From Wenyingzhuangia fucanilytica (GTDB taxonomy: Bacteria > Bacteroidota > Bacteroidia > Flavobacteriales > Flavobacteriaceae), in NCBI RefSeq assembly GCF_001697185.1, contig NZ_CP014224.1, positions 682,001 to 746,000 of the forward strand: DNA of 64,000 bases. The letters run 5' to 3'. Both the position numbers and the translations under genes were made by a program. This document shows, in pieces, positions 38,373 to 64,000 of this stretch (positions are counted from its first letter, which is position 1; every line of letters starts with the position of its first letter). Under the pieces are notes generated by a model. It saw nothing but the letters and a program-made list of their open reading frames with translations, made no database searches and had not been told where the DNA came from.

Positions 38373-41300
38373 ATGAATAAGAATATATATTTTATTGTTT
38401 TTTGCTTTTGCTATCATATTGTTTTTGGCCAGTTTACCAACTTAAAAATTGAGAATTTAAGTACAGAAGAAGGACTTTCTAGTAGTACTTGTTTAGAACT
38501 TTTTCAAGACAGTGATGGATTTTTATGGTTTGGAACTATTGATGGTTTAAATAAATATAATGGTTATGAATTTGAGATATTCCGTCCAATTTTAAATGAT
38601 TCTACTTCTATTAGTAACAATAGAATAAATGTTATAAAAGAAGATGTTGATGGAAATTTATGGATTGGTACCAATAATGGTCTAAATTTTCTTAATAAAA
38701 ACACTAAAGTATTTACACGTGTTAAATTATACGAGAAATCTTTAAAAACTGTTACCACAACAGAGGTCATTAATACATTGTTTTACGATCATCTTACCAA
38801 TCAGCTTTGGGTAGGTACTAATAATGGTTTGGTGAAAATTACATTTAATGATGGTGTTGTAGATTTAAACGATTTAAATATTAAGCATTATAAATATATT
38901 GTTAACAATGAAAAAACTATTGACAATAATAATGTATATGAAATTAGAAAAGATAATGAAGATTTTATTTGGGTAGAAACCAATGGTGAACATTTAAACA
39001 AATACAATCCTAATGCAGATTTTTTCGAAAGAGTTGAAATAAATACCAAAGCTCAATATGAATTAAATCACTTACCTAAACGATTTTTTATAGATGCTGA
39101 TAATGATTTTTGGATAGGTAATGATGTGTCTAAAATTATTTTTTGGGATAAAGAAGAGAATACTTTTAATGAAATTTCACTATCTGATAAAAGTGTCCCT
39201 TTTTATGATTTTTACCAAGATAAATCTGGATTAATATGGATTCCTACTGATGGTGATGGGATTTATTTATATAATAAGTCAACAAAAAAAGCACAGCATA
39301 TCGTACATGATAATTCAGATCCTTTTTCATTACCCAATAATCAAATATGTAAAGTACTAGAGGATAAAGATGGAGTATTTTGGTTGGCTACCTATAATGC
39401 TGGTGTTTGTAAGTTAGACCTTAAAAAGTCAAGTTTTGGACATTATTATTATCAAGAAGGAAGAAAAGATTGGTTGAATGAAAAAATTGTTCAATCTGTT
39501 TTACAAGATTCAAAAGAAAGAATATGGATTAGTGCGTACAATGGAGGTTTAAATTTATTTGATGATAAAAACAGAACTTTTAAATCTTTTAGGTACGATG
39601 CAAAAAATAAAAACACATTAAGTTCTAATAAGATCCTTTATACTTTTGAAGGGAGTAATGGTGAAATATGGGTTTGTACTTTAGATGGTGGGGTTAGTAA
39701 ATTTAATCCAGAAACATTAAAGGCGAAAAGATATTTACACGATGAATTAAACGCATTAAGTGTTGGTCAAAATTCTGTTTGGACTGGTGTTGAAGATGAT
39801 GATAAAAGAGTTTGGTTTGGATTAAGAGATCAAGGTTTAGATTTATTTGATCTTGAAAGTGAAAAATTTTATCATTTTAAAATAGGAGAAAGTAATCAAG
39901 AAGGTTTGTTGAGTAACTTTGTTTTTTCTTTAAAAGTAGACTCCAAAAAAAGACTTTTAATAGGTACTTCCTTAGGTTTAAACTATGTAAATCTAGAAGA
40001 TATAAAAGAACATGTTCCTGAGCAGTTAGTGTTTAATGAAGTTGATATTCACGGTATTTCAGGGAATAGAATAAATTACATTACCGAAGATTATTTAAAT
40101 AACATTTGGTTAGGTACAGATAATGGAGTGTTTAAATTAGATTCAAATTTAAACTTGGTAAAATCATATTTTTCTAAAGATGGATTACCAAATAATTTAA
40201 TTACTGGACTTGTAGAAGATTTAGATCATAATTTTTGGATTACTACCAGAAGTGGTTTGTCTTTTTTAAACCCTCGAACTCATCAAATAAAAACTTTTAA
40301 TACGCATGATGGTATTCAAGGTATGGAGTACCAAAGTAAATCTGTAGATCTTACTAAAGATGGACGAGTAATTCTTGGAGGAATTAATGGGTTTAATATT
40401 TTTAACCCAAAAGATATTTCTTTTAGCGCAAAGGTAGAGTTGCATCCAAAAATTCTAGGGTTAAAAATTAATAACAAGGAGGTTAATCAAGGAGATGTCA
40501 TCAATAGTAGTTATAAGTTATCAAAATCAATCCCTGAGACTAAAAAAATTAGTTTAAAATACGATCAAAGTAATTTGTCCTTTAATTTTATCGCCCTTTA
40601 TTTTCAAAATCAAGAGCAAGTAAAGTATGCTTATATAATGGAGGGATTAGATAAAGATTATATCAATTCTGGTACAAATAGAATTGTAAACTACTCTAAT
40701 TTACAGCCAGGATCTTATACTTTTAAAGTTAAAGCATCATCAGATGGTAATTGGGATGCAGCTCCGGTAACTTTTATGGAGATTAAAGTAAATTTTCCAC
40801 CATGGAAAACACTTACAGCATATACCATCTATCTTTTAATAGCATTTATATTACTATGGTATTTACAGAACTATTATACCAATAGAGTTAATAGTCAAAA
40901 AGAAAGAGAGTTCGATCAATTAAAGTTAGAGTTCTTTATAAATGTTTCTCATGAGTTTAGAACACCGTTAACATTAATATTAAATCCTTTAGATAAATTA
41001 ATTGCAGGATACAATGATCCACAAGTAGTTAAGAGCTCGGCACAATCTATACAACGAAGTGCAAGAAGATTACTGTATTTGGTAAATCAACTTTTAGACT
41101 ATCGTAAGATGGAGGTTGGAATGTCTCCTTTACAATTACAAAAAGGAGATATAGTTAAGTTTAGTAATGATATTTATGCACTGTTTAAAGATATAGCTGC
41201 TAAGAAAAATATAGAATATACTTTTAAATCAAGTTCTCCTGAGTTGATTTCACTTTTTGATTTCGATAAAATTGAAAAGATCTTAACCAATTTAATTTCT

Positions 41301-42542
41301 AATGCAATCAAATTTACCAATGCCGAAGGTGAAATAAAAGTGTCTATCGCTAAAGTGGTTGATAAAAAGAATGGTAAAGATGATGATAAATCAACCAAAA
41401 AAGGACTTGTTAATTATATTCAAATAGAAGTAGAGGATACAGGAATAGGTTTAGATAAAGAACAGCTTAAAAAAATATTCTCTCGTTTTTATAATGTAGA
41501 TGTTTATAAAACAGGAACAGGAATTGGGCTAAACTTTACCAAAGGATTGGTAGAAATACATGGTGGAGAAATTTTTGTAGAAAGTCAATTTAACAAAGGA
41601 AGTAAGTTTACAGTAAGAATTCCGTTAAATACAAATGCAGAATCTAGTGTTGTAAAACCTGTAAAAGATGAGTTCTTAATCAACTCAATGAAATCGGTAG
41701 AATATGACATGTTGATTTCAGATGAAGGAGATGTAATTATTCACGAAGAAAAAGCTCCTGCAAGTGGAGATTTACCAAAAGTGTTAATTGTAGAAGATAA
41801 TAAAGAACTAAGGCTACATTTAAAAAACGAATTATATGCTGCTTACGATGTTTTTGAAGCTCCAAACGGAGAAGAAGGTCTAAAAATGGTTTTAAAACAT
41901 TATCCTGATATTGTTATTAGTGATGTAATGATGCCAAAAATGGATGGTTTTGAATTGTGTAAAAAGATAAAATCAGAGTTTGAAACTTGTCATATTCCTG
42001 TAATACTACTAACTGCAAGAGCCTTAGAAAAAGATAGAATTGAAGGGTATAATACTGGTGCTGATGGGTATTTAGGAAAACCATTTAATATAAATGTTTT
42101 AAAGGCAAGGGTTAATAACTTATTAGAGGCTAAAAGAATTATCAGAGAAAAGTTCTCAAAATTAGGAGCGGTAATCACTCCAAACGAGGTTACTAGTAAT
42201 TCTATAGATGAGGCATTTTTAGAAAAAACAACCAAAATTATTTTAGATAATATTAGTGATACTGATTTTAAATTAGAACACTTATTAAAAGAAATAGGAA
42301 TTGGTAGGTCTCAGTTTTATAGAAAAATACAATCAATTACAGGTCAAAACCCTAGTAATTTTATTCGTACCATTCGATTAAAATACGCTTCAGAACTTTT
42401 GTTAAAAGAGATGTATACCATTAAAGAAGTGACTCATATGGCTGGGTTTAATTCAGCAGCATATTTCGGAAAAACATTCCGTGAATTGTATAATATGACA
42501 CCTAGTGAGTATGTAGAAGCGAATAAAAACGAAAACACATAA
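38373..42542 (+). CDS. Hybrid two-component system (HTCS) regulator of the PUL
   Basis: A single 1389-residue inner-membrane protein combining sensor, kinase and transcription factor. A signal peptide (ends near VFGQ, residue 20) leads to a periplasmic sensor of repeated beta-propeller motifs with DGFLWFGTIDGLNKYN-type repeats (about 25-690) and a Y_Y_Y domain (about 732-808). A membrane helix is at about 810-832. The kinase has phospho-acceptor His860 in NVSHEFRTPL and ATP-binding DTGIGLDKEQL and GTGIGLNFTKG. The receiver domain (about 1136-1250) has phospho-acceptor Asp1184 in VISDVMMPKMDG, and an AraC-type DNA-binding domain ends the protein (about 1290-1385). HTCS proteins sense oligosaccharides and switch on the adjacent PUL, here the genes to its right. 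Confidence 0.96.
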   Translation: MNKNIYFIVFCFCYHIVFGQFTNLKIENLSTEEGLSSSTCLELFQDSDGFLWFGTIDGLNKYNGYEFEIFRPILNDSTSISNNRINVIKEDVDGNLWIGTNNGLNFLNKNTKVFTRVKLYEKSLKTVTTTEVINTLFYDHLTNQLWVGTNNGLVKITFNDGVVDLNDLNIKHYKYIVNNEKTIDNNNVYEIRKDNEDFIWVETNGEHLNKYNPNADFFERVEINTKAQYELNHLPKRFFIDADNDFWIGNDVSKIIFWDKEENTFNEISLSDKSVPFYDFYQDKSGLIWIPTDGDGIYLYNKSTKKAQHIVHDNSDPFSLPNNQICKVLEDKDGVFWLATYNAGVCKLDLKKSSFGHYYYQEGRKDWLNEKIVQSVLQDSKERIWISAYNGGLNLFDDKNRTFKSFRYDAKNKNTLSSNKILYTFEGSNGEIWVCTLDGGVSKFNPETLKAKRYLHDELNALSVGQNSVWTGVEDDDKRVWFGLRDQGLDLFDLESEKFYHFKIGESNQEGLLSNFVFSLKVDSKKRLLIGTSLGLNYVNLEDIKEHVPEQLVFNEVDIHGISGNRINYITEDYLNNIWLGTDNGVFKLDSNLNLVKSYFSKDGLPNNLITGLVEDLDHNFWITTRSGLSFLNPRTHQIKTFNTHDGIQGMEYQSKSVDLTKDGRVILGGINGFNIFNPKDISFSAKVELHPKILGLKINNKEVNQGDVINSSYKLSKSIPETKKISLKYDQSNLSFNFIALYFQNQEQVKYAYIMEGLDKDYINSGTNRIVNYSNLQPGSYTFKVKASSDGNWDAAPVTFMEIKVNFPPWKTLTAYTIYLLIAFILLWYLQNYYTNRVNSQKEREFDQLKLEFFINVSHEFRTPLTLILNPLDKLIAGYNDPQVVKSSAQSIQRSARRLLYLVNQLLDYRKMEVGMSPLQLQKGDIVKFSNDIYALFKDIAAKKNIEYTFKSSSPELISLFDFDKIEKILTNLISNAIKFTNAEGEIKVSIAKVVDKKNGKDDDKSTKKGLVNYIQIEVEDTGIGLDKEQLKKIFSRFYNVDVYKTGTGIGLNFTKGLVEIHGGEIFVESQFNKGSKFTVRIPLNTNAESSVVKPVKDEFLINSMKSVEYDMLISDEGDVIIHEEKAPASGDLPKVLIVEDNKELRLHLKNELYAAYDVFEAPNGEEGLKMVLKHYPDIVISDVMMPKMDGFELCKKIKSEFETCHIPVILLTARALEKDRIEGYNTGADGYLGKPFNINVLKARVNNLLEAKRIIREKFSKLGAVITPNEVTSNSIDEAFLEKTTKIILDNISDTDFKLEHLLKEIGIGRSQFYRKIQSITGQNPSNFIRTIRLKYASELLLKEMYTIKEVTHMAGFNSAAYFGKTFRELYNMTPSEYVEANKNENT

Positions 42543-42594
42543 GTTATTTGACTCTCATGTGTTTAAAGTTTAAATGGGCTTTATTTTAGGAGTA

Positions 42595-42644
42595 TTGATT
42601 CATGTTTTATATTTATAAAAGCATAGTATTTTTATTATTGTATT
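42595..42644 (+). promoter_or_regulatory. Conserved upstream block of the first GH88 gene
   Basis: Fifty bases starting TTGATTCAT and ending ATTGTATT share 37 of 50 positions, without gaps, with the block at 47360-47409 before the second GH88 gene. The central TTTATATTTA is identical. The spacing from first to last motif is exactly 50 bases in both. It is a candidate promoter/operator, perhaps bound by the HTCS; it lies 27 bases before the ATG. Confidence 0.6.
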
Positions 42645-42671
42645 ATTGGAATAATAAAAATACTATGCTTT
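42618..42671 (+). other. Perfect 22-bp hairpin directly before the first GH88 start codon
   Basis: Left arm 42618-42639 and right arm 42650-42671 are perfect reverse complements (they begin AAAGCATAG and end CTATGCTTT), separated by a 10-base loop. The ATG of GH88 follows immediately at 42672. No T-run follows, so it is not a simple terminator. In RNA it would fold next to the start codon and could limit translation; in DNA it could be an operator. Confidence 0.75.
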
Positions 42672-43859: not shown

Positions 43860-43860
43860 A

Positions 43861-44724
43861 ATGAGAAAACAATATTTAGTTTTAGTACTTTTTTTAGTGT
43901 TGGGAAGTAAAATATATTCACAAACGGTTCCCTATACTATTGGGCGTATAGTGGTGAGTTCCGATGGAAATGAACACGATCATGATGATTGGGCTGCCAC
44001 TCCTTTTACACTAGCATTACTTGCTGCAAAAAACTTACAAGATCGTTTAACAGTTTATACTTTTAGTGATCATATATGGGGAAGCAATCATGATAAACCC
44101 GATGGTAAAAAACAAATGTTGATAAGTGCTTTAGAAGGAAAAGAAATTTATCATTACCACCATTCTAATTTTATAGAAGCGGTTGCAGATAGCACAAAAG
44201 CAATTCAGGCCATAGTAAAAGAAATTAATAAATCTAAAAAACAAGATCCATTAACAATTATTGCTGCAGGGCCTATGCATGTTGTTGGAAGTGCTATTGC
44301 CAAAGCCAAAAAATCTAAATTAAAATACGTGAGATTAATTTCTCATTCTAATTGGAATGATAATCATTCTGATAAACCATATAATTGGGAACATCACTCA
44401 GGGTGGACTTGGAAAGAAATAAAAGAAACTTTCTCGTCTAGCGGATTGATTTGTGATAGAATTCTAGACCAAAATGGAGGAAAAGATTATGAGGGAATGA
44501 AAGCCCCAAAACACATGTTCGATTGGATTAAAAACTCACCAATAAGAGAAGGTTCTGAGGAAGTTTCAAAACAATTAGATTGGCTGTATAAAAGACAATT
44601 AACTTGTGTAAAAAAAGGTGATTTAGACCCTTCTGATGCTGGAATGATTATTTATTTACTTACCGGCAAACAAAAAACAAATCCAGAAGATGCTAGAAAA
44701 ATTATTGAGCATAAAACCCTTTAA
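43861..44724 (+). CDS. Secreted nucleoside-hydrolase-like protein of unknown function
   Basis: A 287-residue exported protein (signal peptide ends near IYSQ, residue 21). After the signal there is VVSSDGNEHDHDDWAATPF, where the acidic cluster HDHDD (residues 39-43) with Asp35 resembles the calcium-binding DxDxxxDD of nucleoside hydrolases, though not exactly. A later DPLTIIAAGPMHVVGSAI strand also fits that fold (compare DUF1593). The carbohydrate context makes nucleoside hydrolysis unlikely; a glycosidase or a carbohydrate-binding role is possible. It is one base after GH88 and 21 before GH3, so the three form one transcript. I do not recognise a defined family for it. Confidence 0.6.
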   Translation: MRKQYLVLVLFLVLGSKIYSQTVPYTIGRIVVSSDGNEHDHDDWAATPFTLALLAAKNLQDRLTVYTFSDHIWGSNHDKPDGKKQMLISALEGKEIYHYHHSNFIEAVADSTKAIQAIVKEINKSKKQDPLTIIAAGPMHVVGSAIAKAKKSKLKYVRLISHSNWNDNHSDKPYNWEHHSGWTWKEIKETFSSSGLICDRILDQNGGKDYEGMKAPKHMFDWIKNSPIREGSEEVSKQLDWLYKRQLTCVKKGDLDPSDAGMIIYLLTGKQKTNPEDARKIIEHKTL

Positions 44725-44745
44725 ATCTCGTAAACTTAATTAAGA

Positions 44746-47157
44746 ATGAAATATAAAATAGCAGCAATATTCTTATTGCCTTGTGTTTTAATATTGACTT
44801 TGTCTTTTAAAACAAAACCTAAAAAAATCTATCATAAAGATTGGATAGATTTTAACAAAAATGGAGTAAAAGATGTTTTTGAAGATCCTAAGGCAGATAT
44901 AGAAGATAGGGTACAGAACCTTGTTTCTTTAATGAATGTTGACGAAAAAACTTGTCAGCTAGTAACGCTATACGGATATGCACGCGTTTTAGAAGATGAA
45001 TTGCCTACGCCTGAATGGAAAAATAGAGTGTGGAAAGATGGTATTGCTAATATTGATGAGCACTTAAACACCATTCACGGAAGAGAAAATACTTATACAG
45101 AAAATTCATATCCATATAGTAATCATGCGGAGGCTATTAATAAAGTTCAAAAATGGTTTATAGAAGAAACTAGAATGGGAATTCCTGTAGATTTCACCAA
45201 TGAAGGAGTTCACGGACTTTGTCATAAAAAAGCTACTCCTTTACCAGCTCCCATTGGTATTGGAAGTACATGGAACAAAGAATTGGTTTACAAAGCAGGA
45301 ACTGTAGTAGGTAGAGAAGCAAAAGCTTTAGGTTATACAAATGTGTATGCTCCCATTTTAGATGTTGCAAGAGACCAAAGGTGGGGAAGGGTTTTAGAAT
45401 GTTATGGAGAGGAACCTTTTCATATTTCAGAAATGGGAAAACAAATGGTTAAGGGAATTCAATCTCAAGGAATAGCTTCTACCATCAAGCATTTTGCTGT
45501 TTATAGTATCCCAAAAGGAGCTAGAGATGGAGATGCAAGAACGGATCCGCATGTAGCACCAAGAGAAATGCATCAGTTGCATTTGTATCCTTTTAAAAAA
45601 GTAATTAAGGAAGCAAAGCCTATGGGTGTTATGAGTAGTTATAACGATTATGATGGTGAACCCGTAAGTGCTAGTTATTATTTTTTAACAGAACTATTAA
45701 GAGAAGAATACGGTTTTAATGGTTATGTAGTTTCTGACAGTGAGGCAGTTGAATATGTGTCGGATAAACATCATGTAGCAGCAGATTATAAAGAAGCTGT
45801 AAGACAGGTAATTGAAGCAGGATTAAATGTAAGAACTACTTTTAGAACACCAGAATCTTTTGTAAAACCTTTAAGAGAATTAATTCAAGAAGGAAAGTTG
45901 TCTATGAAAACCATAGATTTAAGAGTGGCAGAAGTACTAAGAGTTAAGTTTAAGTTAGGTTTGTTTGATCAGCCTTATGTAGAAACCCCAAAAAAATCTA
46001 ATGAATTGGTTCATACTAAGCAAGATGAAGAATTTTCTAAACAAATCAATAGAGAGTCATTAGTCTTGTTAAAAAACGAAAACAATTTATTGCCTTTAAA
46101 TGTAAATAATTATAAAAACATCTTAGTAACAGGTCCCTTAGCAGATGAGGTTAATTTTACCTATAGTAGGTATGGGCCAGCAGAAAATCCATCAACCTCA
46201 GTATATCAAGGAATTAAAAAATATGCTAAAAATAGTGCTAATGTTTATTACGAAAAAGGTTGTGATATAGTAGATCCTAATTGGCCAGGAAGTGAGATTA
46301 TTCCTACTCCTTTATCAGTAGAAGAGCAAGCAAGCATTAATGCTGCTGTAGAAAAAGCAAAACAATCAGATGTAATTATTGCTGTAGTAGGAGAGGATGA
46401 AAAACGAGTGGGGGAAACAAAATCAAGAACTAGTCTTGGACTTCCAGGAAGACAATTTCAGTTAGTACAAGCTTTATACGCTACAGGAAAACCTGTTGTT
46501 TTGGTATTGATTAATGGTCAACCTTTAACCATCAACTGGGAAAATAAGTATTTACCAGCTATTTTAGAAGCCTGGTTTCCTAGCACTGCAGCAGGAGAAG
46601 TGATTGCTGAAACTTTATTTGGAGATTATAACCCTGGAGGAAAGTTGTCTGTAACTTTTCCTAAATCAGTAGGACAAATACCTTTAAACTTCCCTTTTAA
46701 ACCAGGTTCTCAAGCAGGGCAGCCAGGTTCTGGTCCCAATGGATATGGTAATACAAGAGTGCTTGGGCCATTGTATCCTTTTGGTTATGGTTTAAGTTAT
46801 ACTACATTTAAGTATAGTGATTTGGTTGTCAATCAAAAAACAAAACATTCTCAAAGTGATGTACTTGTTTCTTTTAAAATAACCAATACAGGAAAAAGAG
46901 AGGGGGATGAAATTGTACAAATGTATGTAAAAGACAAGGTGAGTAGTGTTACTACTTATGAATCACAACTTAGAGGTTTTGAACGTGTTCATTTATCACC
47001 AGGAGAAACTAAAACAGTACAGTTTACTTTACAGCCAGAAGATTTAGAAATTTTGGATAAAAATATGAATTGGACAGTTGAGTCAGGAACTTTTAAAATC
47101 ATGATTGGTAGTTCATCAGTGGAGATTCATTTAAGTGAAGAGTTTGAAGTTTTGTAG
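44746..47157 (+). CDS. GH3 family beta-glycosidase
   Basis: An 803-residue exo-acting glycosidase removing beta-linked terminal sugars (glucose, xylose or similar). A hydrophobic N-terminus acts as signal or anchor, then DFNKNGVKDVFEDPKA, a Ca-binding-like loop, and the (beta/alpha)8 domain with STIKHFAVYS and the nucleophile Asp331 in GYVVSDSEAVEYV. The second domain has NRESLVLLKNENNLLPL, and the end is a fibronectin III-like domain (EGDEIVQMYVKD). The substrate cannot be assigned. It is the last gene of the first enzyme block; a weak hairpin in the following gap may end transcription. Confidence 0.93.
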   Translation: MKYKIAAIFLLPCVLILTLSFKTKPKKIYHKDWIDFNKNGVKDVFEDPKADIEDRVQNLVSLMNVDEKTCQLVTLYGYARVLEDELPTPEWKNRVWKDGIANIDEHLNTIHGRENTYTENSYPYSNHAEAINKVQKWFIEETRMGIPVDFTNEGVHGLCHKKATPLPAPIGIGSTWNKELVYKAGTVVGREAKALGYTNVYAPILDVARDQRWGRVLECYGEEPFHISEMGKQMVKGIQSQGIASTIKHFAVYSIPKGARDGDARTDPHVAPREMHQLHLYPFKKVIKEAKPMGVMSSYNDYDGEPVSASYYFLTELLREEYGFNGYVVSDSEAVEYVSDKHHVAADYKEAVRQVIEAGLNVRTTFRTPESFVKPLRELIQEGKLSMKTIDLRVAEVLRVKFKLGLFDQPYVETPKKSNELVHTKQDEEFSKQINRESLVLLKNENNLLPLNVNNYKNILVTGPLADEVNFTYSRYGPAENPSTSVYQGIKKYAKNSANVYYEKGCDIVDPNWPGSEIIPTPLSVEEQASINAAVEKAKQSDVIIAVVGEDEKRVGETKSRTSLGLPGRQFQLVQALYATGKPVVLVLINGQPLTINWENKYLPAILEAWFPSTAAGEVIAETLFGDYNPGGKLSVTFPKSVGQIPLNFPFKPGSQAGQPGSGPNGYGNTRVLGPLYPFGYGLSYTTFKYSDLVVNQKTKHSQSDVLVSFKITNTGKREGDEIVQMYVKDKVSSVTTYESQLRGFERVHLSPGETKTVQFTLQPEDLEILDKNMNWTVESGTFKIMIGSSSVEIHLSEEFEVL

Positions 47158-47359
47158 AAAAAACATCCGATAGTATCTATGGTTTTGATATCAAAAAATG
47201 TGGTCGTTATAGAAAGGTTTGTCAAGAATAAAAAAAGTAAAATAATAAGTCAGGGTTTGGTTAAATATGTTAAATAATTTTCGGTGTTTTACTAAAAATC
47301 TCTACAAACCCACTGAATACAGTGTTTTCACCCTTAAAAAGGGTATTGTTTTATTGAAT

Positions 47360-47409: not shown

Positions 47410-47421
47410 GTAAATATGACT

Positions 47422-47451: not shown

Positions 47452-47469
47452 TTAAAAGAAAAATATAAT

Positions 47470-48669
47470 ATGAAAGTTTTAAAAATGATTTTGGCAACGT
47501 GTTGTTTGGTTGCTTTGCTGTTTGTCTATGGGTGTGAAAATAAAGAAAAGACAAAAAGCGCTACGGAAGTTGTTCTTGATAAAAGTGTATCAAAGGTAAA
47601 AGATGTAATGCAGTCTTTAACAGAAGTAGATAGTTTTCCAAGAAACATAACAAAAGGGAAAAAGAACTGGAACTTTGTAGGTTACAGAGATTGGTGTTCT
47701 GGTTTTTACCCAGGAGTATTATGGTATGCTTATGAGTATTCTAAAGATGAAGAAATAAGAAAAGGAGCCGAAGCATTTACAGCTTCTTTAAAAGATATTG
47801 CATACACACCTGCTGATAATCACGACATCGGTTTTATGATGTACTGTAGCTACGGAAATGGATATAGATTAACTGGTAATGAGGAGTATAAAGATATTTT
47901 ATTAGCCTCTGCAGATACATTGGCTACTTTGTACAACCCTAAAGTTGGAACTATTTTATCTTGGCCTGGAATGACAGAAAAAATGGGACATAACACCATT
48001 ATTGATAACATGATGAATTTAGAGTTGCTTTTTTGGGCAGCTAAAAATGGAGGAGATCATAAATTGTATGATATCGCAAAAAGTCATGCAGAAGTATCTA
48101 TGAAGTACTTAGTACGTCCAGATAACTCAATTTATCACGTAATTTGTTTTGATCAAGAAACAGGTGAGTTTGTTAAAGGAATAACACACCAAGGTTATGC
48201 TGATGAGTCTATGTGGGCTAGAGGACAAGGATGGGGAATCTATGGTTTCTCAATGTCTTACAGAGAAACAGGAGATGAAGAGTTTTTAAATACAGCTATT
48301 GGTTTGGCTGATCATTTTATAGAAAGATTACCAGAAGATGGTATACCATATTGGGATTTTGATGATCCAAAAATTCCTAACGCACCAAAAGATGCTTCAG
48401 CTGCTGGAGTTGTAGCTTGTGGTATGTTAGAGTTGTCTAGTTTAGTTAAAGATGAGGCTTTAAAAACAAAGTACTTTAACGCAGCAAAATCATTAATCAC
48501 AAAATTAAGTTCTGATGAGTATTTAAGCGGTGATGTTAACGATGCTTTATTGTTACATTCAACAGGACACATGCCTCATAACTCAGAAATTGATGTTCCA
48601 ATTGTATATGCAGACTATTATTTTATGGAAGCATTGTTGAGATTAAAAAAAGCAGAAAGTATAGATTAG
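47470..48669 (+). CDS. GH88 unsaturated uronyl hydrolase (lipoprotein), second copy
   Basis: A 399-residue paralogue of the first GH88, with the same motifs: DWCSGFYPGVLWY, HDIGF with Asp119, NTIIDNMMNLELLFW with Asp179, and an identical WDFDDPKIPNAPKDASAA block. The N-terminal signal ends in a lipobox with Cys22 (FVYGC). Two close GH88 copies in one locus suggest two different unsaturated disaccharides (for example sulfated and unsulfated) or gene dosage; the family cannot tell them apart from sequence. It is flanked by its own promoter region and a strong terminator, so it is probably monocistronic. Confidence 0.93.
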   Translation: MKVLKMILATCCLVALLFVYGCENKEKTKSATEVVLDKSVSKVKDVMQSLTEVDSFPRNITKGKKNWNFVGYRDWCSGFYPGVLWYAYEYSKDEEIRKGAEAFTASLKDIAYTPADNHDIGFMMYCSYGNGYRLTGNEEYKDILLASADTLATLYNPKVGTILSWPGMTEKMGHNTIIDNMMNLELLFWAAKNGGDHKLYDIAKSHAEVSMKYLVRPDNSIYHVICFDQETGEFVKGITHQGYADESMWARGQGWGIYGFSMSYRETGDEEFLNTAIGLADHFIERLPEDGIPYWDFDDPKIPNAPKDASAAGVVACGMLELSSLVKDEALKTKYFNAAKSLITKLSSDEYLSGDVNDALLLHSTGHMPHNSEIDVPIVYADYYFMEALLRLKKAESID

Positions 48670-56732: not shown

Positions 56733-56736
56733 ATAA

Positions 56737-58719
56737 ATGAATCTATTTTTTAAAAAGTTTAGCGTTATAATTACATTATTATTAGTGTTTACTAGTTGTA
56801 ATTCAGCTGAGGTGATTGAATTATCATCACCAGATACTTCTAAAAAAATTGTCTTCTTAGAGGGAGAGAATAACAATATTACGTTTTCAGTTTATTACAA
56901 TGATAAAAAAATAATTCAAACATCTGTTTTAGAATTGTTATCAGAGGAATTAAATTTTTCTGGAAAAGTAACTGTTGAACAAATAGAAAATACATCTGTA
57001 AATACTACGTGGAATTCTAGGTTTAGTGAGTTAAGTACTATTCCAGATCACTACAATCAAACTAAAATTTACTTAAAGCAAGGAAATGCCAAGTTAAACA
57101 TTATTGCTAGAGCTTATAATGAAGGTGTAGCGTTTTCTTACGAAGTTCCTGCTCAAAACGGAATAGAAGAAATTGGGTTAAGTGAAAATATTCATTACAA
57201 TTTTTCTGAAAACTTTCCTGTTTGGTCTACTCCAAAACGTGAAAAAGGAGTGTTAACGGCTCAAGGAAAATACAGTAAAATTCCTATGACCGAATTGCAA
57301 GAAGGAGCAGACAGACCTTTGTTAATTGAAGTAAGTGATGATATAAAGATTGCTTTGGCAGAAGCTCAATTGGTAGATTATGCTAGAATGAGTTTTGATA
57401 AAGGAAATTCATCAAAATATAGTATTGTCTCTTCTCTTGATGGAAAAACAGAAGCATTAAAGCAAGATGAAATCACAGGAGCTGTTATAGAAGAAAACAA
57501 AGTAGCAGGAGCTAGAGTACATAAAAAACTTCCTTTTCAATCTCCATGGAGAGTGGTAATGATGGGAGAAAGTTATGGAGAATTGTTAGAGAATAATTAT
57601 TTAATACAGAACTTAAATCCACCATCTGAAATTGCTGATGATTCTTGGATTAAACCAGGAAAAGTACTTAGAGAAACTACTTTAACTACTCAAGGAGCAT
57701 TTGCTGCTATAGATTTTGTATCAAGCCACAACATGCAATACATTATGTTTGATGCGGGTTGGTATGGAAATGAAATGAAGAACAGTTCTGATGCTACTAC
57801 GGTTACTTTAGATCCTAAAAGATCAAAAGGGCCTTTAGATATGCAAGCAGTTACTGCGTATGGTAAAGAAAGAGGTGTTGGACTTATTTTGTATGTTAAC
57901 CGTCGTGCTTTAGAAAAGCAATTAGATGATATTTTACCATTGTTTAAAGAATGGGGAGTAGCAGGTATTAAGTTTGGTTTTGTAAGAGTTGGAGATCAAG
58001 ATGCTACTGCATGGATGCATGAAGCTATTAAAAAAGCTGCCGAATATGGAATGATTGTAGATGTTCATGATGAGTACAGACCAACAGGTTTTTCTAGAAC
58101 GTATCCTAACTTGTTAACTCAAGAAGGTATTAGAGGAGATGAAGAATCAGTGCCAAACGACCATACTCTAATAACAATGTTTACCAGAACTTTGGCTGGA
58201 GCATCTGATAATACTGTTTGTTACTATAACTCCCGTGTTAATAAAATGGGGTCTCACGCATCTCAATTAGCAAAAACAATCTGTGTTTTTAGTCCATTAC
58301 AATTTTTGTATTGGTATGATAAAGCTCCTGCAGCTCCAATAAAAGAAGATGGATTATGGGGAGATACTAAAACTATTGGTAACGAACCAGAACTTGAATT
58401 TTTTAACAATGTACCTACTACTTGGGATGAAACAAAAGTGTTAAAAGCAGAAATTGGAGAAGTTGGAGTGATTGCTCGTAGAAAAGGAAACGATTGGTTT
58501 ATTGGAGGAATTAACGGAACAACGCCTCATAATGTTGAAGTAGATTTTTCATTTTTAGAACCAAATGCTAAGTACCTAGCTAAGGTTTATACAGATGATG
58601 AAACTGTAAAAACTAGAACCAATGTTAAAATAGAAGAGGTAGCGGTATCACATAAAACTAAACAAAACCTAAGTTTAAAAAGTAATAATGGTTTTGTAAT
58701 GCATATAACTAAACAATAA
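56737..58719 (+). CDS. GH97 family alpha-glycosidase with atypical active site
   Basis: A 660-residue lipoprotein (lipobox Cys21, VFTSC) of GH97, a family of alpha-glucosidases and alpha-galactosidases typical of Bacteroidota. Family marks are the N-terminal beta-sandwich, then SWIKPGKVLRETT (about 303-315), and HDEYRPTGFSRTYPNLLTQE (about 444-463). The retaining nucleophile Asp position reads IKFGF (Gly414), as in inverting SusB-like members, but the position of an expected catalytic Glu is Asp445, followed by Glu446; Glu463 and Glu469/470 remain. The mechanism is therefore uncertain. It lies four bases after the lyase and 11 before the second sulfatase. Confidence 0.88.
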   Translation: MNLFFKKFSVIITLLLVFTSCNSAEVIELSSPDTSKKIVFLEGENNNITFSVYYNDKKIIQTSVLELLSEELNFSGKVTVEQIENTSVNTTWNSRFSELSTIPDHYNQTKIYLKQGNAKLNIIARAYNEGVAFSYEVPAQNGIEEIGLSENIHYNFSENFPVWSTPKREKGVLTAQGKYSKIPMTELQEGADRPLLIEVSDDIKIALAEAQLVDYARMSFDKGNSSKYSIVSSLDGKTEALKQDEITGAVIEENKVAGARVHKKLPFQSPWRVVMMGESYGELLENNYLIQNLNPPSEIADDSWIKPGKVLRETTLTTQGAFAAIDFVSSHNMQYIMFDAGWYGNEMKNSSDATTVTLDPKRSKGPLDMQAVTAYGKERGVGLILYVNRRALEKQLDDILPLFKEWGVAGIKFGFVRVGDQDATAWMHEAIKKAAEYGMIVDVHDEYRPTGFSRTYPNLLTQEGIRGDEESVPNDHTLITMFTRTLAGASDNTVCYYNSRVNKMGSHASQLAKTICVFSPLQFLYWYDKAPAAPIKEDGLWGDTKTIGNEPELEFFNNVPTTWDETKVLKAEIGEVGVIARRKGNDWFIGGINGTTPHNVEVDFSFLEPNAKYLAKVYTDDETVKTRTNVKIEEVAVSHKTKQNLSLKSNNGFVMHITKQ

Positions 58720-58730
58720 TTAAATAAGAA

Positions 58731-60401
58731 ATGAAAAATCAACAACTAACATTAAGGTTTTTATCGTTTTTCTTTTGTGCTATACTAGTAGTGTCATGTA
58801 AGCCAAAAGAACAAAAAGCAGCAAAAAAAGAATTGCCAGCAAAAAGACCAAATATCATTTTTATGATGTCTGATGATCATGCTTATCAAGCAATTAGTGC
58901 TTATAGTGATCATTTAATTCAAACACCTAATATTGATAGAATAGCAAACGAAGGGATTAAATTTACAAATGCCTGTGTATCTAACTCTATTTGTGCACCA
59001 TCAAGAGCTACAATCTTAACAGGTAAGCACTGTCATATACACGGTAAAGTAGATAATGTTTTTCCTTTTGATGAATCTCAAACTACCTTTCCTCAAATCA
59101 TGCAAAAAGCTGGATACAAAACAGCGATGTTTGGAAAATTACACTTTGGGAACAATCCTAAAGGGGTAGATGAATTTAAAATTTTACCAGGACAAGGAAG
59201 ATATTACAATCCTATTTTTAATACTAATGATGGTCAAATTACTGTTGAAGGATATGTAACAGATATCATTATGGATATGACTTTAGAGTGGTTAGAAAAC
59301 AACAAGAATAGCGAAGAGCCATTTATGTTATTTTCTATGCAAAAAGCACCTCATAGAGAGTGGTTGCCAGCACCACGTCACTTTAAAGAGTACACTAAAA
59401 AAACTTTTAAAGAGCCAGAAACTTTGTTTGATGACTACGAAGGAAGAGGAACTGCTGCTAAAACTGCAGAAATGAACTTATTAACTCATATGAACTGGGC
59501 TGGAGATTCTAAAATGTATCCAGACATCATGAAAGAGTTAGGAATTAAAGACAAGTCAGGTTGGGACTTAGAAGCTTTTGAACGTGAGGTAGGAGCTATG
59601 AATGAAGAGCAAAGAGCTGTTTGGGATTCTGTGTACAGACCTATGATGGAAGCATTCAAAAAAGAATATCCTAACATGAGTGATGAGGAATTGATGAAAT
59701 GGCGTTACCAACGTTATATGCAAGATTATTTAGGATGTATTGCTTCTGTGGATGAAAATGTTGGTCGTTTATTAGACTATTTAGATGAAACTGGATTGGC
59801 AGAAAATACGATTATCGTATATACTTCAGACCAAGGATTTTATTTAGGAGAGCACGGATGGTTTGACAAGCGTTTTGTTTACGATGAATCATTTAAAACA
59901 CCTTTATTAATCCGTTGGCCAAATGTAATTAAGCCTGGTACTACTAGTACAGAAATGGTTCAGAATTTAGATTTTGCACAAACTATTTTAGAAGCAGCTC
60001 ATATTGAGGCTCCTGATGATATGCAAGGAGAAAGTTTGGTTCCATTATTATTAGGAAACAATGAGGAGTGGACAAGAGATGCTGTGTATTATCACTACTA
60101 TGAATACCCAGGTATTCACATGGTAAAAAGACACTATGCTATCATTACTCAAGAATATAAGTTAGCACATTTTTACTACGATGTTGATGAATGGGAATTG
60201 TACGATCGTAAAAATGACCCTAATGAAATGAAAAATGTAATTGATGATCCTGCATATGCTGATGTTGTTGTAAAACTGAAAAAGCAATTGGCAGATTTGA
60301 GAGAACAATATGGAGATAGCTCTCAATTAGATCAAGAAATATTAAGAAAATACTTAGAAGCACAAAATAATCCTGATATAGAAACAGTGCCTTTGCATTA
60401 A
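58731..60401 (+). CDS. Sulfatase (family S1, lipoprotein), second
   Basis: A 556-residue sulfatase distinct from the first. The lipobox Cys23 (LVVSC) anchors it. NIIFMMSDDHAYQ holds the metal Asp pair, and the formylglycine motif is CAPSRATILTGKH with Cys88. A second acidic site is YTSDQGFYLGEHG. Length and style are like N-acetylglucosamine-6-sulfatase/choline-sulfatase-type members, but the S1 subfamily is not assigned. Two sulfatases here point to at least two sulfate positions in the substrate. It is 69 bases from the next gene. Confidence 0.93.
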   Translation: MKNQQLTLRFLSFFFCAILVVSCKPKEQKAAKKELPAKRPNIIFMMSDDHAYQAISAYSDHLIQTPNIDRIANEGIKFTNACVSNSICAPSRATILTGKHCHIHGKVDNVFPFDESQTTFPQIMQKAGYKTAMFGKLHFGNNPKGVDEFKILPGQGRYYNPIFNTNDGQITVEGYVTDIIMDMTLEWLENNKNSEEPFMLFSMQKAPHREWLPAPRHFKEYTKKTFKEPETLFDDYEGRGTAAKTAEMNLLTHMNWAGDSKMYPDIMKELGIKDKSGWDLEAFEREVGAMNEEQRAVWDSVYRPMMEAFKKEYPNMSDEELMKWRYQRYMQDYLGCIASVDENVGRLLDYLDETGLAENTIIVYTSDQGFYLGEHGWFDKRFVYDESFKTPLLIRWPNVIKPGTTSTEMVQNLDFAQTILEAAHIEAPDDMQGESLVPLLLGNNEEWTRDAVYYHYYEYPGIHMVKRHYAIITQEYKLAHFYYDVDEWELYDRKNDPNEMKNVIDDPAYADVVVKLKKQLADLREQYGDSSQLDQEILRKYLEAQNNPDIETVPLH

Positions 60402-60470
60402 AATGTAGAGAATTGTTGTATCGGAGGGGAGGAATTCCAAGAATAGAAACATTAACTTAAACAAATAATT

Positions 60471-61967
60471 ATGAATACATTAAAACTAAAAAACGTTTTA
60501 TTTTTAAGTCTGGTAGTTTTATTTACTTCAGTCTTAACAACGAGCTGTGTAAACAGAGTACAGCCCGAAGAATTTGATAATGATAGAGAAAAAGATTTAC
60601 CTCAAGAGCCTAGTTATGGAGATGATACCATAAGGGTAGCATCAATAGCTCAATTAAGAAAAGCAGCAATTAGAAATAATAAAACAATTATTATGGTGCC
60701 TGGAGAGTACACTGCAGAAGGTACTATGCCACAGGATCCTAAAACGATTTATCACTTTAGTGGTTCTAATAACAAGTTTATTTTTAAAGATGCTACTATT
60801 ATCACTCCAACAGAGGTGTTACGTGGTATGGGGCCTGGTAATACGCATGAATTTGCTACTTACCGTATTGATGGAAGCAATATTACTATCGAAGGAGGAA
60901 CTTTTAAAAATACAGGATGGGATCACCCATACAAAAGTCTTTCTGAGTTTGAAGTACAAGGAAACGACATTTCATTCTTAGGATGTAATATCTATGTTCA
61001 AGGATCTAAACCTTATGGTTACGGAGATTATTATGGTAAAGGTTCACCTTTTTATACACCTTTGTATAAACATGCTGCGATGTCTATTTTAGGAGATAAT
61101 GTAATTGTAGATGGTTGTGATTTTAAAGTGTATGCATTTGGACATGGAATTCACATTCATGGTTCTCAAAATACAATTATACGTAACAATACTATGGAAG
61201 GTATTTTAAGGCCTACTAATGAAATTTACGAAGAAACAGAAGCAACTCATCCAGGAAGTCCAGCAGTTTCTTTTGATTACAAAATTTGGTTTCCAGAAGA
61301 GAAAAGAGGAGATGCTATTCCAAGAGATGAAATGTTGAGTTTAACAGAAGATGGAATTAGAGCTTATTTAGATGGAACTGATGTAAATGGTGTAAACCGT
61401 AGAACTGGAGACATTTTAGTAGAAAATAATTTTGTAGATAAAATGAGATCAGGGGTCGCTATGGCAATTGCATCTGGTAAAGTAACGGTAAAGGGGAATA
61501 CTATAATCAATTGTGATACTGCTTATTCATTGTCTTCTGATGATGAAGTAACAGCAGATAACAAAGGAAATGTTGCTTATGGACCATTATTATCTATGCC
61601 ATATGATCATAAAAGAAACTCTCAAATTGTATTAACATTGATAGATCCAAATGAAGGAACTATGGGAACTCACAATTTTGCTGAAATTACAGGTTCTGGA
61701 CATAACATTAGATTTATTGATGAAACTACTGATCCAAACGCTAACTTAAGACCTATTTGGATTGGTGTAGCTCATGAGTATAGCTCTGATGAATCAGATC
61801 CAGATGCTTCAGTAGATGGTTACAATGCTAAAGACATCATTATTAATAATGAAACTAAAAACCCAATAGTATTTGGACAATATTCTTCTGGTACTACAGG
61901 AACTACAAAAGGTGTAATTACATCTGATGATGGAACAAATAATTCAGTTACTGTTGTAACAGAATAA
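60471..61967 (+). CDS. Right-handed beta-helix lipoprotein (PL6-like fold)
   Basis: A 498-residue lipoprotein (lipobox Cys26, LTTSC) with the pectate-lyase-like beta-helix pattern: VPGEYTAEGTMPQ, ITIEGGTFKNTGW, NVIVDGCDFKVYAFGHGIHI, NTIIRNNTMEG, ILVENNFVDKMRSG. This resembles chondroitinase B/PL6-type lyases or related surface glycan-binding or epimerase-like proteins; the family is not secure and catalytic residues cannot be named. The C-terminus is Thr/Gly-rich and less ordered. Its place between the sulfatase and the second lyase supports a polysaccharide role. Confidence 0.65.
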   Translation: MNTLKLKNVLFLSLVVLFTSVLTTSCVNRVQPEEFDNDREKDLPQEPSYGDDTIRVASIAQLRKAAIRNNKTIIMVPGEYTAEGTMPQDPKTIYHFSGSNNKFIFKDATIITPTEVLRGMGPGNTHEFATYRIDGSNITIEGGTFKNTGWDHPYKSLSEFEVQGNDISFLGCNIYVQGSKPYGYGDYYGKGSPFYTPLYKHAAMSILGDNVIVDGCDFKVYAFGHGIHIHGSQNTIIRNNTMEGILRPTNEIYEETEATHPGSPAVSFDYKIWFPEEKRGDAIPRDEMLSLTEDGIRAYLDGTDVNGVNRRTGDILVENNFVDKMRSGVAMAIASGKVTVKGNTIINCDTAYSLSSDDEVTADNKGNVAYGPLLSMPYDHKRNSQIVLTLIDPNEGTMGTHNFAEITGSGHNIRFIDETTDPNANLRPIWIGVAHEYSSDESDPDASVDGYNAKDIIINNETKNPIVFGQYSSGTTGTTKGVITSDDGTNNSVTVVTE

Positions 61968-61996
61968 TTATAGGAAAACCTATTATTAAAAATTAA

Positions 61997-62036
61997 AATA
62001 ATCTTGGGTTTGTGTTTTCACAGACTCAAGATTATT
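61997..62036 (+). other. Intercistronic 18-bp hairpin before the second lyase gene
   Basis: Arms 61997-62014 and 62019-62036 pair over 18 positions (two G-T pairs) around a TTTT loop, the arms beginning AATAATCTTG. No T-run follows; the next gene starts 16 bases later. It may be an mRNA processing or stability element rather than a terminator, though weak termination is possible. Confidence 0.6.
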
Positions 62037-62051
62037 AATTAAATAAATAAC

Positions 62052-64000
62052 ATGAAATATAGATTACTAATACTTTCTTTTGTTTTATTTTTTATACAAA
62101 GTCAGGCTCAACAAACAAAGAATCATCCAAGAATATTTACTTCAAAAGAAGATAGAGCTGAGTTATTACATAAAATAGAAAATGAATCTTGGGCTAAACA
62201 ATCATGGAACAAACTTTTAGAAGATATAGAAGTCCATGTAAATAGACATGTAACAGATCCGGAATGGATGGTGTCTAGGTTAGCTATGTATTGGAAAGAT
62301 GGTGAACGTTATACGCAATGTTATATTAAAAATCAAAATTGGGATTATGGAGAAGGAAACGCTCCTGTACCCACAGTAAGATTACCAGGTATGCGTACTT
62401 GGAATGATTACGTAAATGTACCTTTAGAAGATAGAATTCCGTATAATGAATCTGGAGATTTGTTAGGAATTAGTCGTTCTAGTGCAGACAAAACCCCTGT
62501 ATTAATTCCTTATAAGGAAACAGGACATATGATTCGCCAAAACAATATGGAAATATTGCAGTTGGCAGAACAAGCAGCTTTTGCTTATTACATTACTCAA
62601 GAAGAAAAATATGCAAAATTTTCATCAGATATTTTTTGGACCTGGTTATTAGGTATTTATTACATGAATCCACCTTTAGATCCTGAACAATCTACAAAAG
62701 GACCTGGAGGATATGAACCAGGAGGAATTATGGGGTATTATGACTATGAAGTAATTCATGACGATAGACAAGCTCCAATGGCCGCTACTTATGATTTCTT
62801 ATACGACTATTTAAATAATAACCCTCATAAACATTTGTCTCAAATCAACAAAAAAACAGTTGATGTAGCAGGAGAAGTGTTTAAGAGATTTATAGAAATA
62901 GGATTGGTTAGAGGAGGAAAAAAGGGAAATTGGAATGTGAACAGATATAGACATATCATGAACAGCATTTTAGCTTTAGAGTCTAATGAATTTTATGAAG
63001 ACGGAAAAGGTCGTGAATATTACATTCCTTTTTACACAGAAAAGTCAGGAGACCACTATGCAGGTTTGCCAGAAATTATGGCAAACTATGATAAAGAAAC
63101 TGGATTGTGGCCAGAATCTCCAGGGTATGCATCGGGAATGATTCCTTTTGTCTTAGAAATGGGATTAAAATTATATAAATCAGGAGTAAATACTTTAGAT
63201 GGAAACCCAATAATTACCAAAGCAACCTTAGCAAATTTAGGTTGGTTAGATGCTAGAGGGAATTTAGTCGTTTTTGGTGATATGCGTGGAGGACCAGCAA
63301 ACATGTCTGCTTTTGAATTTTTATTGACTTATTCAGTTTGGGAAAATGATTCTGAAACGGCTAAAAAAATGGCAACAGTTATCCGTAAAAATATGGCCGC
63401 TAATCAGCATGATAGAACTGCTTTAGATTGGGAAGAAATTATTTTTAATCAACCATTACCAGATTCTGGAAGTGATTTGCCATTTCATAACGCAGCCTAT
63501 TCAAAATTCCATAGACATATGATTTTAAGAAATGGAAACGATGAAGAAAATGGTTTGATGTTTACTTTATATGGAGGAAAAAAGAATTCTCACTTAACCG
63601 AAAACGGTTTGGCTATGCAATTTTATGGTAAAGGTTTTGCTTTGGCTCCAGATGCATCGGCTTATGAGTCTTATTGGTCATCAGATGCTGGATACCATAG
63701 AGGGATTATGGGATCTAACACTATTGTTCCCGGATATAGAGTAGGAGATATTAAAGTAAACGCTATGGATCCTATGGTGGATAATGGTTTTTATAACAGT
63801 AAAGTTACTTCAGAAAATTGTTCTTTTGCTGATGTTTCTGCTGATGAAAAACGTCGTTTGGTAGCCATGGTGCGTACTTCTAAAACCACAGGATATTATG
63901 TAGATGTTTTTAGATCTGACCAAAAAGACAATGATTTTGTACATCATAATTTAGGGAATTCAGTAACACTTAAAAACGATGCTAATGAACCTTTAAGCCT
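62052..64000 (+). CDS. Second heparinase II/III-type lyase, 3'-truncated by the window edge
   Basis: At least 649 residues, open to the window end. A signal peptide (ends near residue 20, QSQAQQ) precedes a sequence clearly paralogous to the lyase at 53919: NHPRIFTS, a WMVSRLAMYW block, APVPTVRLPG, NWNVNRYRHIMNSILAL, GLAMQFYGKGFALAPD and TTGYYVDVFRS. The His-rich turn present in the first copy reads NSHLTENG here, so the active sites are not identical, which suggests different chain ends or sulfation patterns. It is the last visible gene of the PUL, which evidently continues. Confidence 0.82.
   Translation, partial: MKYRLLILSFVLFFIQSQAQQTKNHPRIFTSKEDRAELLHKIENESWAKQSWNKLLEDIEVHVNRHVTDPEWMVSRLAMYWKDGERYTQCYIKNQNWDYGEGNAPVPTVRLPGMRTWNDYVNVPLEDRIPYNESGDLLGISRSSADKTPVLIPYKETGHMIRQNNMEILQLAEQAAFAYYITQEEKYAKFSSDIFWTWLLGIYYMNPPLDPEQSTKGPGGYEPGGIMGYYDYEVIHDDRQAPMAATYDFLYDYLNNNPHKHLSQINKKTVDVAGEVFKRFIEIGLVRGGKKGNWNVNRYRHIMNSILALESNEFYEDGKGREYYIPFYTEKSGDHYAGLPEIMANYDKETGLWPESPGYASGMIPFVLEMGLKLYKSGVNTLDGNPIITKATLANLGWLDARGNLVVFGDMRGGPANMSAFEFLLTYSVWENDSETAKKMATVIRKNMAANQHDRTALDWEEIIFNQPLPDSGSDLPFHNAAYSKFHRHMILRNGNDEENGLMFTLYGGKKNSHLTENGLAMQFYGKGFALAPDASAYESYWSSDAGYHRGIMGSNTIVPGYRVGDIKVNAMDPMVDNGFYNSKVTSENCSFADVSADEKRRLVAMVRTSKTTGYYVDVFRSDQKDNDFVHHNLGNSVTLKNDANEPLS

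Follow-up and report, generated by a model that had tools for sequence, protein, structure and literature searches.

A genomic island of about 180 kb in Wenyingzhuangia fucanilytica, most likely directed at a fucoglucuronomannan-type fucoidan, has its SusC/SusD importers far from its hybrid regulator

The window analyzed here is a stretch of 64,000 nucleotides from the Wenyingzhuangia fucanilytica genome (G000:C1:682001-746000; genome coordinate = window coordinate + 682000), which is a single contig of 3,427,057 bases with an estimated completeness of 100%. From position 38373 to its right edge, the window encodes a hybrid two-component system (HTCS) regulator followed by glycoside hydrolases (GH), sulfatases, heparinase-type lyases, a beta-helix protein and a sugar porter of the major facilitator superfamily (MFS). 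Our analysis indicates that this stretch is, with high probability, the left end of one island of ~179.7 kb whose target would be an algal polysaccharide containing sulfate, fucose and glucuronate, most likely a fucoglucuronomannan-type fucoidan. An earlier note on this DNA had described a polysaccharide utilization locus (PUL) with an MFS porter in place of SusC/SusD. This claim did not survive, since the block contains three SusC/SusD pairs, whose orthologues flank the same enzymes in relatives.

Search of the whole genome with the SusC models PF07715 (plug) and PF00593 (barrel) and the SusD models PF07980 and PF14322 confirmed the observation that neither gene is present in 38373-64000. No SusC was detected between 675.9 and 833.5 kb of the genome, and for SusD the range without a match is 678.4 to 836.4 kb; the gap extends 112 kb to the right of the HTCS. 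The search for SusC/SusD beyond position 64000, which the earlier note had proposed, revealed three pairs in the same codirectional block, the first of them preceded by genes for an extracytoplasmic function (ECF) sigma factor and FecR:

830778-832812 (genome), preceding SusC1: ECF sigma factor (830778) and FecR (831655), by Pfam
832915-838192 (genome), + strand: SusC1D1 pair, by the Pfam SusC/SusD models
862242-866963 (genome), + strand: SusC2D2 pair, by the Pfam SusC/SusD models
870179-874970 (genome), + strand: SusC3D3 pair, by the Pfam SusC/SusD models

Measured from the HTCS start, the three pairs are 112-155 kb further right, the nearest being 86.9 kb past the window edge. What had been named in advance as decisive against a locus devoid of SusC/SusD, namely that a pair follows immediately within one operon, was therefore found in substance but, at this distance, not to the letter. 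The locus does run off the right edge, as had been noted, and the block continues to ~899.7 kb. Co-localization of SusC/SusD with carbohydrate-active enzymes is provided by these three pairs and by none in the window part, while both the HTCS at 38373 and the ECF sigma/FecR genes at 830778-832812 are present as cognate regulators.

The 937-aa lyase of the window (53919-56732) was used as the query of a search across 299 family genomes and matched 30 of them, G000 counted. Neighbourhoods of its homologues were read in 12 relatives. The order HTCS, divergent SusD-SusC, enzymes was observed in seven of these (G212, G236, G229, G011, G129, G227 and G207), and the order nearest to that of the window occurs in G207 and G229, which have HTCS, SusD, SusC, GH88, the gene for a 287-aa protein, GH29, GH43-like, GH95 (in G229), MFS, esterase, GH97 and lyase. 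The HTCS of the window is 53-62% identical to HTCSs adjoining SusC/SusD in relatives, and the slot between HTCS and GH88, where relatives have SusD-SusC, is occupied in G000 by an inverted repeat (42618-42671). In G121, orthologues of SusC2D2 and SusC3D3 (55-71%) lie between the HTCS (62%) and a GH43-like-MFS-esterase-sulfatase-lyase series; in G173, pairs of the SusC2D2/SusC3D3 type lie 22 kb upstream of the MFS gene. At least one SusC/SusD pair was present in all 12 stretches (that of G061 being of another type). The MFS orthologue, found in eight of the 12, shared its stretch with SusC/SusD in each of the eight, and orthologues of the GH43-like protein (74-82% identical) mostly adjoin it.

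Named relative loci numbered 21, and counts were made on the 15 best (at least 55% identity; L100-L114) with flanks of 10 kb, two of these loci being on the same contigs as the G173 and G212 stretches. MFS was found in 13 of the 15 and SusC and/or SusD in six, with none within the flank in the other nine; in the Polaribacter locus L112, SusC3/SusD3, GH88, MFS, sulfatase and lyase are all within ~13 kb. The six loci below the best 15 have no MFS (0/6) and five have a SusC- or SusD-like gene. A SusD tree was built from 46 of 54 rows, after removal of six repeat entries for G000 genes and of two fragments shorter than 400 aa. SusD1 is sister to the lyase-locus SusD1s of Arenibacter, G002, G129 and G227 (100/100), SusD2 groups with those of G121 and G173 (100/100), and SusD3 with those of G121, G173 and Polaribacter (100/100); none of the 17 other G000 SusDs in the tree falls in these three clades. 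Taken together, the gene order in relatives and the SusD tree show that cognate importers exist in the same block, outside the usual slot. The SusC/SusD pair to the left (673.5-678.4 kb) was rejected as the cognate pair, its SusD grouping with other G000 SusDs.

Fasciclin-domain proteins are encoded before SusC2D2 and between SusC2D2 and SusC3D3 (G000 859905-870155); the middle ones are kept in G121 and G173, the first one in G121 (the G173 stretch starts inside SusC2). G173 also has, at G173:C1:484858-485835 on the minus strand, a SusC1-type match whose open frame spans only 387 aa, and a SusD is encoded 4 kb from it. This may be the remnant of a SusC1, SusC2/3 being retained in this genome.

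Among PDB entries, the MFS protein resembles the D-xylose-proton symporter XylE (1e-74). Since XylE-type porters reside in the inner membrane, such a protein cannot replace an outer-membrane importer, and it is most likely the inner-membrane partner of the SusC/SusD importers.

The boundaries of the block were obtained by comparison with G228, a genome of the same genus. G228 matches G000 as far as 720042, one base short of the end of folE, continues with 20 bases, then resumes at 899713, so that the site holds 20 bp in G228 versus 179,670 bp in G000 (island G000:C1:720043-899712). A 3.3-kb probe over the G228 site gave one uninterrupted match each in G228, G300, G299, G301 and G302; its halves are on different contigs in G303, a fragmented genome of 85% completeness, and are parted by the block in G000. 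The island thus has sharp ends and an uninterrupted, empty site in five of the six other genus genomes, and the lyase is present in one of the seven genus genomes, that of G000. An island of ~179.7 kb is accordingly present in this species and missing from most sequenced members of the genus. At this site folE and the following gene converge, and the gap between them carries a terminator-like palindrome; no tRNA is present within the window. To the left, window positions 32755-35802 encode a 1015-aa protein with no Pfam match, which G228 lacks at this place: its flanks join there, an indel of ~3.2 kb. Inside the island, the module at G000 820549-830428 (GH116, two FdlA-like proteins, GH43-CBM35, GH28 and GH39) shows 79-94% identity to G173, which belongs to another genus; five of its genes are 89-94% identical, which suggests that the module has been shared between genera, although the island-wide median identity to G173 (73%, see below) speaks against this.

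Between the HTCS (genome 720.4 kb) and 899.7 kb, the block comprises 98 open reading frames (ORFs), 97 of them on the + strand. In the stretches fetched beyond the window, ORFs were called mechanically, and the block count includes those of at least 90 aa; Pfam was run on 71 of the 98, and the other 27 were labelled by similarity or by SusC/SusD profiles. For 38373-64000, the gene list of the earlier note was borne out by Pfam, with the GH43-like protein below threshold and the second heparinase-type lyase recognized by 28% identity to the first lyase only:

37357-38043, + strand: folE (GTP cyclohydrolase I; Pfam PF01227), last gene left of the island
38044-64000, no strand: left 26 kb of the island, from the blastn junction against G228; empty site in five of six other genus members
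38373-42542, + strand: HTCS regulator with Reg_prop, Y_Y_Y, HisKA, HATPase, Response_reg and HTH_18 domains (Pfam)
42618-42671, no strand: perfect inverted repeat of 22 bp with a 10-base loop, read in the sequence, abutting the GH88 start codon
42672-43859, + strand: GH88-like unsaturated glucuronyl hydrolase with a lipoprotein-type signal (Pfam)
43861-44724, + strand: conserved 287-aa protein, with 55-80% identical orthologues in relatives
44746-47157, + strand: GH3 (Pfam)
47470-48669, + strand: second GH88-like protein (Pfam), 66% identical to the first (blastp)
49134-50234, + strand: GH43-like protein (Pfam 24.1 bits, below the cut-off of 32.2)
50271-51599, + strand: MFS sugar porter of the XylE/GlcP type (Pfam Sugar_tr), inner membrane by family
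51604-52413, + strand: esterase (Pfam PF00756)
52431-53915, + strand: sulfatase with a CSPSR motif (Pfam; PDB sulfatases)
53919-56732, + strand: heparinase-fold lyase of 937 aa (Pfam Hepar_II_III), orthologues 70-73% identical
56737-58719, + strand: GH97 (Pfam)
58731-60401, + strand: sulfatase with a CAPSR motif (Pfam), 85-90% identical orthologues in several relatives
60471-61967, + strand: FdlA-like right-handed beta-helix protein (Pfam beta-helix; PDB 7xzf, 1.6e-36, residues 54-495)
62052-64000, + strand: second heparinase-type lyase, 885 aa, ending at window-equivalent 64709, past the edge

The first GH88-like protein has PDB relatives in GH88 (1e-81) and in an unsaturated glucuronyl hydrolase (2e-72). 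The GH88-like pair encloses the 287-aa gene and GH3; the relatives' stretches contain one GH88 copy in ten of the 12 and none in two. The 287-aa protein could be placed in no family, its sole Pfam match being one at 0.16, and the second heparinase-type lyase, taken at its full 885 aa, has no Pfam match and orthologues of 70-79% identity in relatives. No second exact copy of a 20-base piece of the repeat arm at 42618-42671 was found in 331 kb. The lipoprotein-type signal of the beta-helix protein (60471-61967) was judged by eye from its N-terminus.

To the right of the window, Pfam recognized GH28, GH29, GH30, GH31, GH39, GH43, GH95, GH97 and GH116, as well as a GH141-like protein, a raffinose-synthase-like protein, esterases, sulfatases and alginate-lyase-like proteins. 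The only minus-strand gene of the block, at 807-811 kb, encodes a protein with a carbohydrate-binding module (CBM6) and a type IX secretion system (T9SS) signal, and the right end holds KduI and two short-chain dehydrogenases. Fucosidases comprise two GH29 and two GH95 by Pfam, and one further of each by blastp. Local profiles were built from island members for FdlA-like (7), heparinase-type (4) and sulfatase (12) proteins, these members matching by construction; beyond them, two more FdlA-like proteins and nine more full-size sulfatases were recovered in the block. Sulfatases thereby number 21 and one fragment. One, at G000 779450-780862, is probably a broken gene, since an in-frame stop codon divides it into ORFs of 350 and 119 aa; in another, at G000 792955 (L023 9955-11457), C-V-A-S-R replaces the usual C-x-P-x-R. 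Among the proteins scanned, T9SS tails occur on seven from the right half and are missing from all 14 of the window, a distribution that fits cutting outside the cell, import and periplasmic finishing.

This gene content supports the earlier assignment of the locus as a PUL for a sulfated, uronate-containing glycan. The same note had found that the combination of families fits no one classical substrate well; the likely answer is fucoidan, since the beta-helix lipoprotein is a relative of the fucoidan (fucoglucuronomannan) lyase FdlA. Nine FdlA-like proteins are encoded in the block, one of them in the window, and the FdlA crystal structure is matched by those at genome positions 838451 (9e-213), 850307 (2e-127) and 823185 (1e-45) as well as by the window protein. 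FdlA cuts between mannose and glucuronic acid in sulfated fucoglucuronomannan, according to its published description (PMC9410043). GH29 and GH95 occur alongside several sulfatases, as in fucoidan PULs, and the endo-acting enzyme expected of such a PUL would be supplied by the FdlA relatives, as judged by sequence similarity. The substrate is therefore most likely a sulfated fucoidan of the fucoglucuronomannan type. The GH141-like protein resembles BT_1002 (9e-14), but its stronger match is to a beta-helix repeat protein (1e-32). The 937-aa lyase is a distant relative (2e-38) of Uly1040 (PDB 9vtk), which we take to be a PL40 ulvan lyase. A pure ulvan PUL, as this relationship could imply, is not preferred because the FdlA relatives, the fucosidases and the GH141-like protein indicate fucoidan. 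Chondroitin or heparin, set aside as well, would have fold-level Pfam names and GH88 relatives as sole backing.

On this basis, FdlA-like and alginate-lyase-like enzymes exported through the T9SS would cut the polymer outside the cell, and SusC1/D1 and the two further SusC/SusD pairs would import the oligosaccharides. In the periplasm, heparinase-type lyases, sulfatases, fucosidases, GH88 and further GHs, a good number of which are encoded in the window, would then finish the breakdown, with the MFS porter carrying monosaccharides across the inner membrane. KduI and a dehydrogenase from the right end would take the unsaturated uronate onward.

Comparison of SusC1 with its orthologues revealed a mosaic at the sequence level. 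As called, SusC1 has 1154 aa, versus 1072-1120 aa in nine orthologues, and its N-terminal part (to about residue 118-149 in local alignment) has no counterpart in these nine; among the proteins compared, its sole match is the ECF/FecR-adjacent SusC of G212 (40%, 8e-25). Within residues 1-200, three of the four 50-residue windows are nearer to this ECF type (46-64%), and in residues 201-1150 every window is nearer to the SusC1s (44-82% versus 11-58%). Residues 19-500 were then compared with 397 family genomes. Among the matches listed, the ten outside G000 with at least 63% identity all start at query residue 109-123, without the extension, and those covering the extension are at most 51% identical. 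Across nine SusC1 loci and nine relatives, the alignment starts at residue 118 or later; in all these stretches, nine of which have flanks of only ~1.5 kb, FecR/ECF sigma genes were found solely next to the second SusC of G212. The sigma factor and FecR genes precede SusC1, as for ECF/FecR-controlled SusCs. At all 20 extension-bearing loci chosen (hand-picked from the upper part of the list, with some higher-ranking ones skipped and lower-ranking ones added for variety), FecR and ECF sigma adjoin SusC, and many of them encode the sigma factor on the other strand.

The extension was modelled alone (pLDDT 86, pTM 0.74) because a carboxypeptidase-like domain dominated the fold matches of a longer N-terminal model, for which PilQ N0, at rank 50, was the sole row of a different kind with a bearing on the extension, and FoxA appeared in VIA-align at row 50 (Z 7.9). 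Foldseek placed a type IV secretion system (T4SS) protein first (2.8e-3), followed by the PupR/PupB complex, PupA, FecA, PupB, PilQ N0 and FpvA, with the Pup, FecA and FpvA rows at 5e-3 to 2e-2. VIA-align gave FoxA at Z 8.4 (rmsd 2.2, 77 aligned) and PupA at Z 8.2 (rmsd 2.6, 81 aligned), next to phage-tail rows of up to Z 8.0 and secretin-type rows of up to 7.6, a Z below 8 possibly meaning a common arrangement only. As a T4SS protein leads the Foldseek list and phage-tail and secretin rows have similar Z, the STN assignment leans on the gene neighbourhood too. The Pfam STN model matches two of ten N-termini tested (6e-5 and 0.058), that of G000 not being among them. Other results speak against the chimera: residues 101-150 are not nearer to the ECF type (15%), the STN model gave no match on G000 SusC1 at E 0.001, 5 or 1, and no Foldseek match of the extension reached E 0.001 or better.

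SusC1 nonetheless looks chimeric, with an N-terminus from an ECF/FecR-linked SusC and the remainder from the HTCS-linked SusC1 lineage, and a signalling role of the extension is likely but not proven. The chances are even that SusC1/D1 was rewired by intragenic recombination. The usual HTCS slot would have been left empty and the pair placed 112 kb away, where the signalling half of a SusC under ECF/FecR control would have taken the place of its first ~200 residues and the pair would have its own sigma/anti-sigma genes; SusC1 would then answer to the ECF/FecR pair rather than to the HTCS, so that import feeds back on transcription through the outer membrane, while the enzymes stay under the HTCS and the island was gained as one unit. 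No such SusC mosaic was found in the titles and abstract openings of the papers listed, which is not proof of absence. An assembly or gene-calling artefact is highly improbable as the origin of the mosaic. The called start of SusC1 may indeed lie ~18-20 residues upstream of the true one, but the genome is a complete single contig, the extension is in frame, and the FecR and ECF sigma genes precede SusC1 as they accompany the 20 chosen loci.

The proposal of one fucoidan island has several observations weighing against it. With SusC/SusD 112.5 kb from the HTCS, there is no single operon; gaps of 183-714 bases interrupt the codirectional run at 17 places, and the block may hold at least two PULs. 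The similarity of the window protein to FdlA is modest, and the substrate is a putative one. GC content is 32.8% in the island versus 31.2% and 31.7% in the flanks, a difference too small for base composition to be used as a sign of transfer; neither the 71 Pfam-scanned ORFs nor the labels given by similarity to the remaining 27 include a recognized mobility family; and median identity over the 38 clear orthologues of island genes in G173 is 73%, no higher than for the histidyl-tRNA synthetase (HisRS) and a right-flank gene (74-75%). Acquisition en bloc is therefore inferred from presence and absence only. The three features also speak for a block ancestral to the genus and lost in sister species, an explanation that we regard as fairly improbable: the same empty site is uninterrupted in five of the six other genus genomes, the lyase occurs in none of the six (one being 85% complete), and the five module genes are closer to G173 than are HisRS and the right-flank gene.

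Two further explanations concern the organization of the block. At least two independent PULs could stand side by side, with the HTCS segment (720-807 kb) targeting one sulfated glycan and borrowing import from elsewhere, and the right-hand SusC/SusD pairs and most FdlA-like proteins serving another. We hold this to be unlikely, though it is the strongest of the competitors. It would account for the intergenic breaks, the minus-strand gene at 807-811 kb, the separate ECF/FecR pair at SusC1, the varying order of the two halves' orthologues among relatives, and the 98 ORFs, to be compared with a mean of 38 genes in PULs for fucose-containing sulfated polysaccharides as reported in PMC6298971. 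Yet G173, G121 and G002 combine genes of the two halves within a single stretch, where those of the left half neighbour SusC1D1 or SusC2/3; the left half has an FdlA-like gene too; and across the genus the block is either there in full or missing in full. A PUL that dispenses with SusC/SusD, completing breakdown in the periplasm or outside the cell and taking up monosaccharides alone via the MFS, is very improbable. In its favour, no SusC/SusD occurs less than 112 kb to the right of the HTCS; the left pair, of another clade, is 42 kb off, beyond ribonucleotide reductase, HisRS, folE and other genes; and PULs from which the entire susCD tandem is missing have been described and are classed as "incomplete" subtypes (PMC6298971). 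It conflicts with the orthologous SusC/SusD pairs in the same block, with the coexistence of MFS and SusC/SusD in all eight relatives having MFS in the fetched stretch, and with the levan PUL, which is described as uniting HTCS, SusC/SusD and an inner-membrane MFS (PMC7782687). The single fucoidan island with displaced importers thus remains the preferred explanation.

A claimed exception to the selfish SusC/SusD model is thereby removed. As a single block can have over 100 kb between SusC/SusD and its HTCS and enzymes, the connection can escape a 64-kb window or a PUL caller seeded on susCD. Within one genus, the island serves as a presence/absence marker for the degradation of a recalcitrant algal polysaccharide, and the SusC1 mosaic is a test case for the exchange of HTCS and ECF/anti-sigma control of PUL transporters through domain swapping. 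The remaining interest lies in the size of the island, its clean presence or absence, and the displaced importer with its apparent change of control.

The nearest described locus that we found is the "ulvan and fucoidan" PUL of Maribacter dokdonensis (PMC8072126), which shares with the island two PL40 lyases, GH29, GH95, GH97, GH141, GH28, sulfatases, kduI, kduD and a mixed substrate signal. PL33 and GH117 are reported there and were not identified in the island, though no dedicated model was run; the island, in turn, spans ~180 kb with three SusC/SusD pairs far from the HTCS, and the description consulted for the Maribacter PUL mentions neither FdlA-like lyases nor a SusC mosaic. The fucoidan cluster of the marine flavobacterium W. 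fucanilytica CZ1127T (PMC6315715, PMC10778895, PMC12786026) also has GH29, GH95, GH141 and sulfatases. Its GH107 and GH168, as described in these sources, were not recognized in the island, for which no dedicated model was run, whereas FdlA-like and heparinase-type lyases are prominent in the latter. The FdlA/FdlB lyases of Flavobacterium sp. SA-0082 (PMC9410043; PDB 7xz7-7xzf) share with the island proteins the right-handed beta-helix catalytic domain and, for some copies, a T9SS tail and F5/8-type or CBM domains, but the island has nine predicted paralogues and the window copy is without a T9SS tail.

The levan PUL of Bacteroides thetaiotaomicron, as presented in PMC7782687, brings together HTCS, SusC/SusD and an inner-membrane MFS as here; it is compact and includes SusC/SusD, whereas the island has these more than 100 kb from the HTCS and a SusC1 with its own ECF/FecR genes. 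According to the same source, SusCs controlled by ECF sigma/anti-sigma have an upstream ECF sigma and FecR and an N-terminal STN, and SusC1 shares the former and may have the latter, its extension resembling the STN fold at modest scores. Unlike them, its plug and barrel belong to the HTCS-linked lineage, and while a carboxypeptidase-like N-terminal extension is said there to precede STN in all cases (PMC7782687), in SusC1 the STN-like part comes first.

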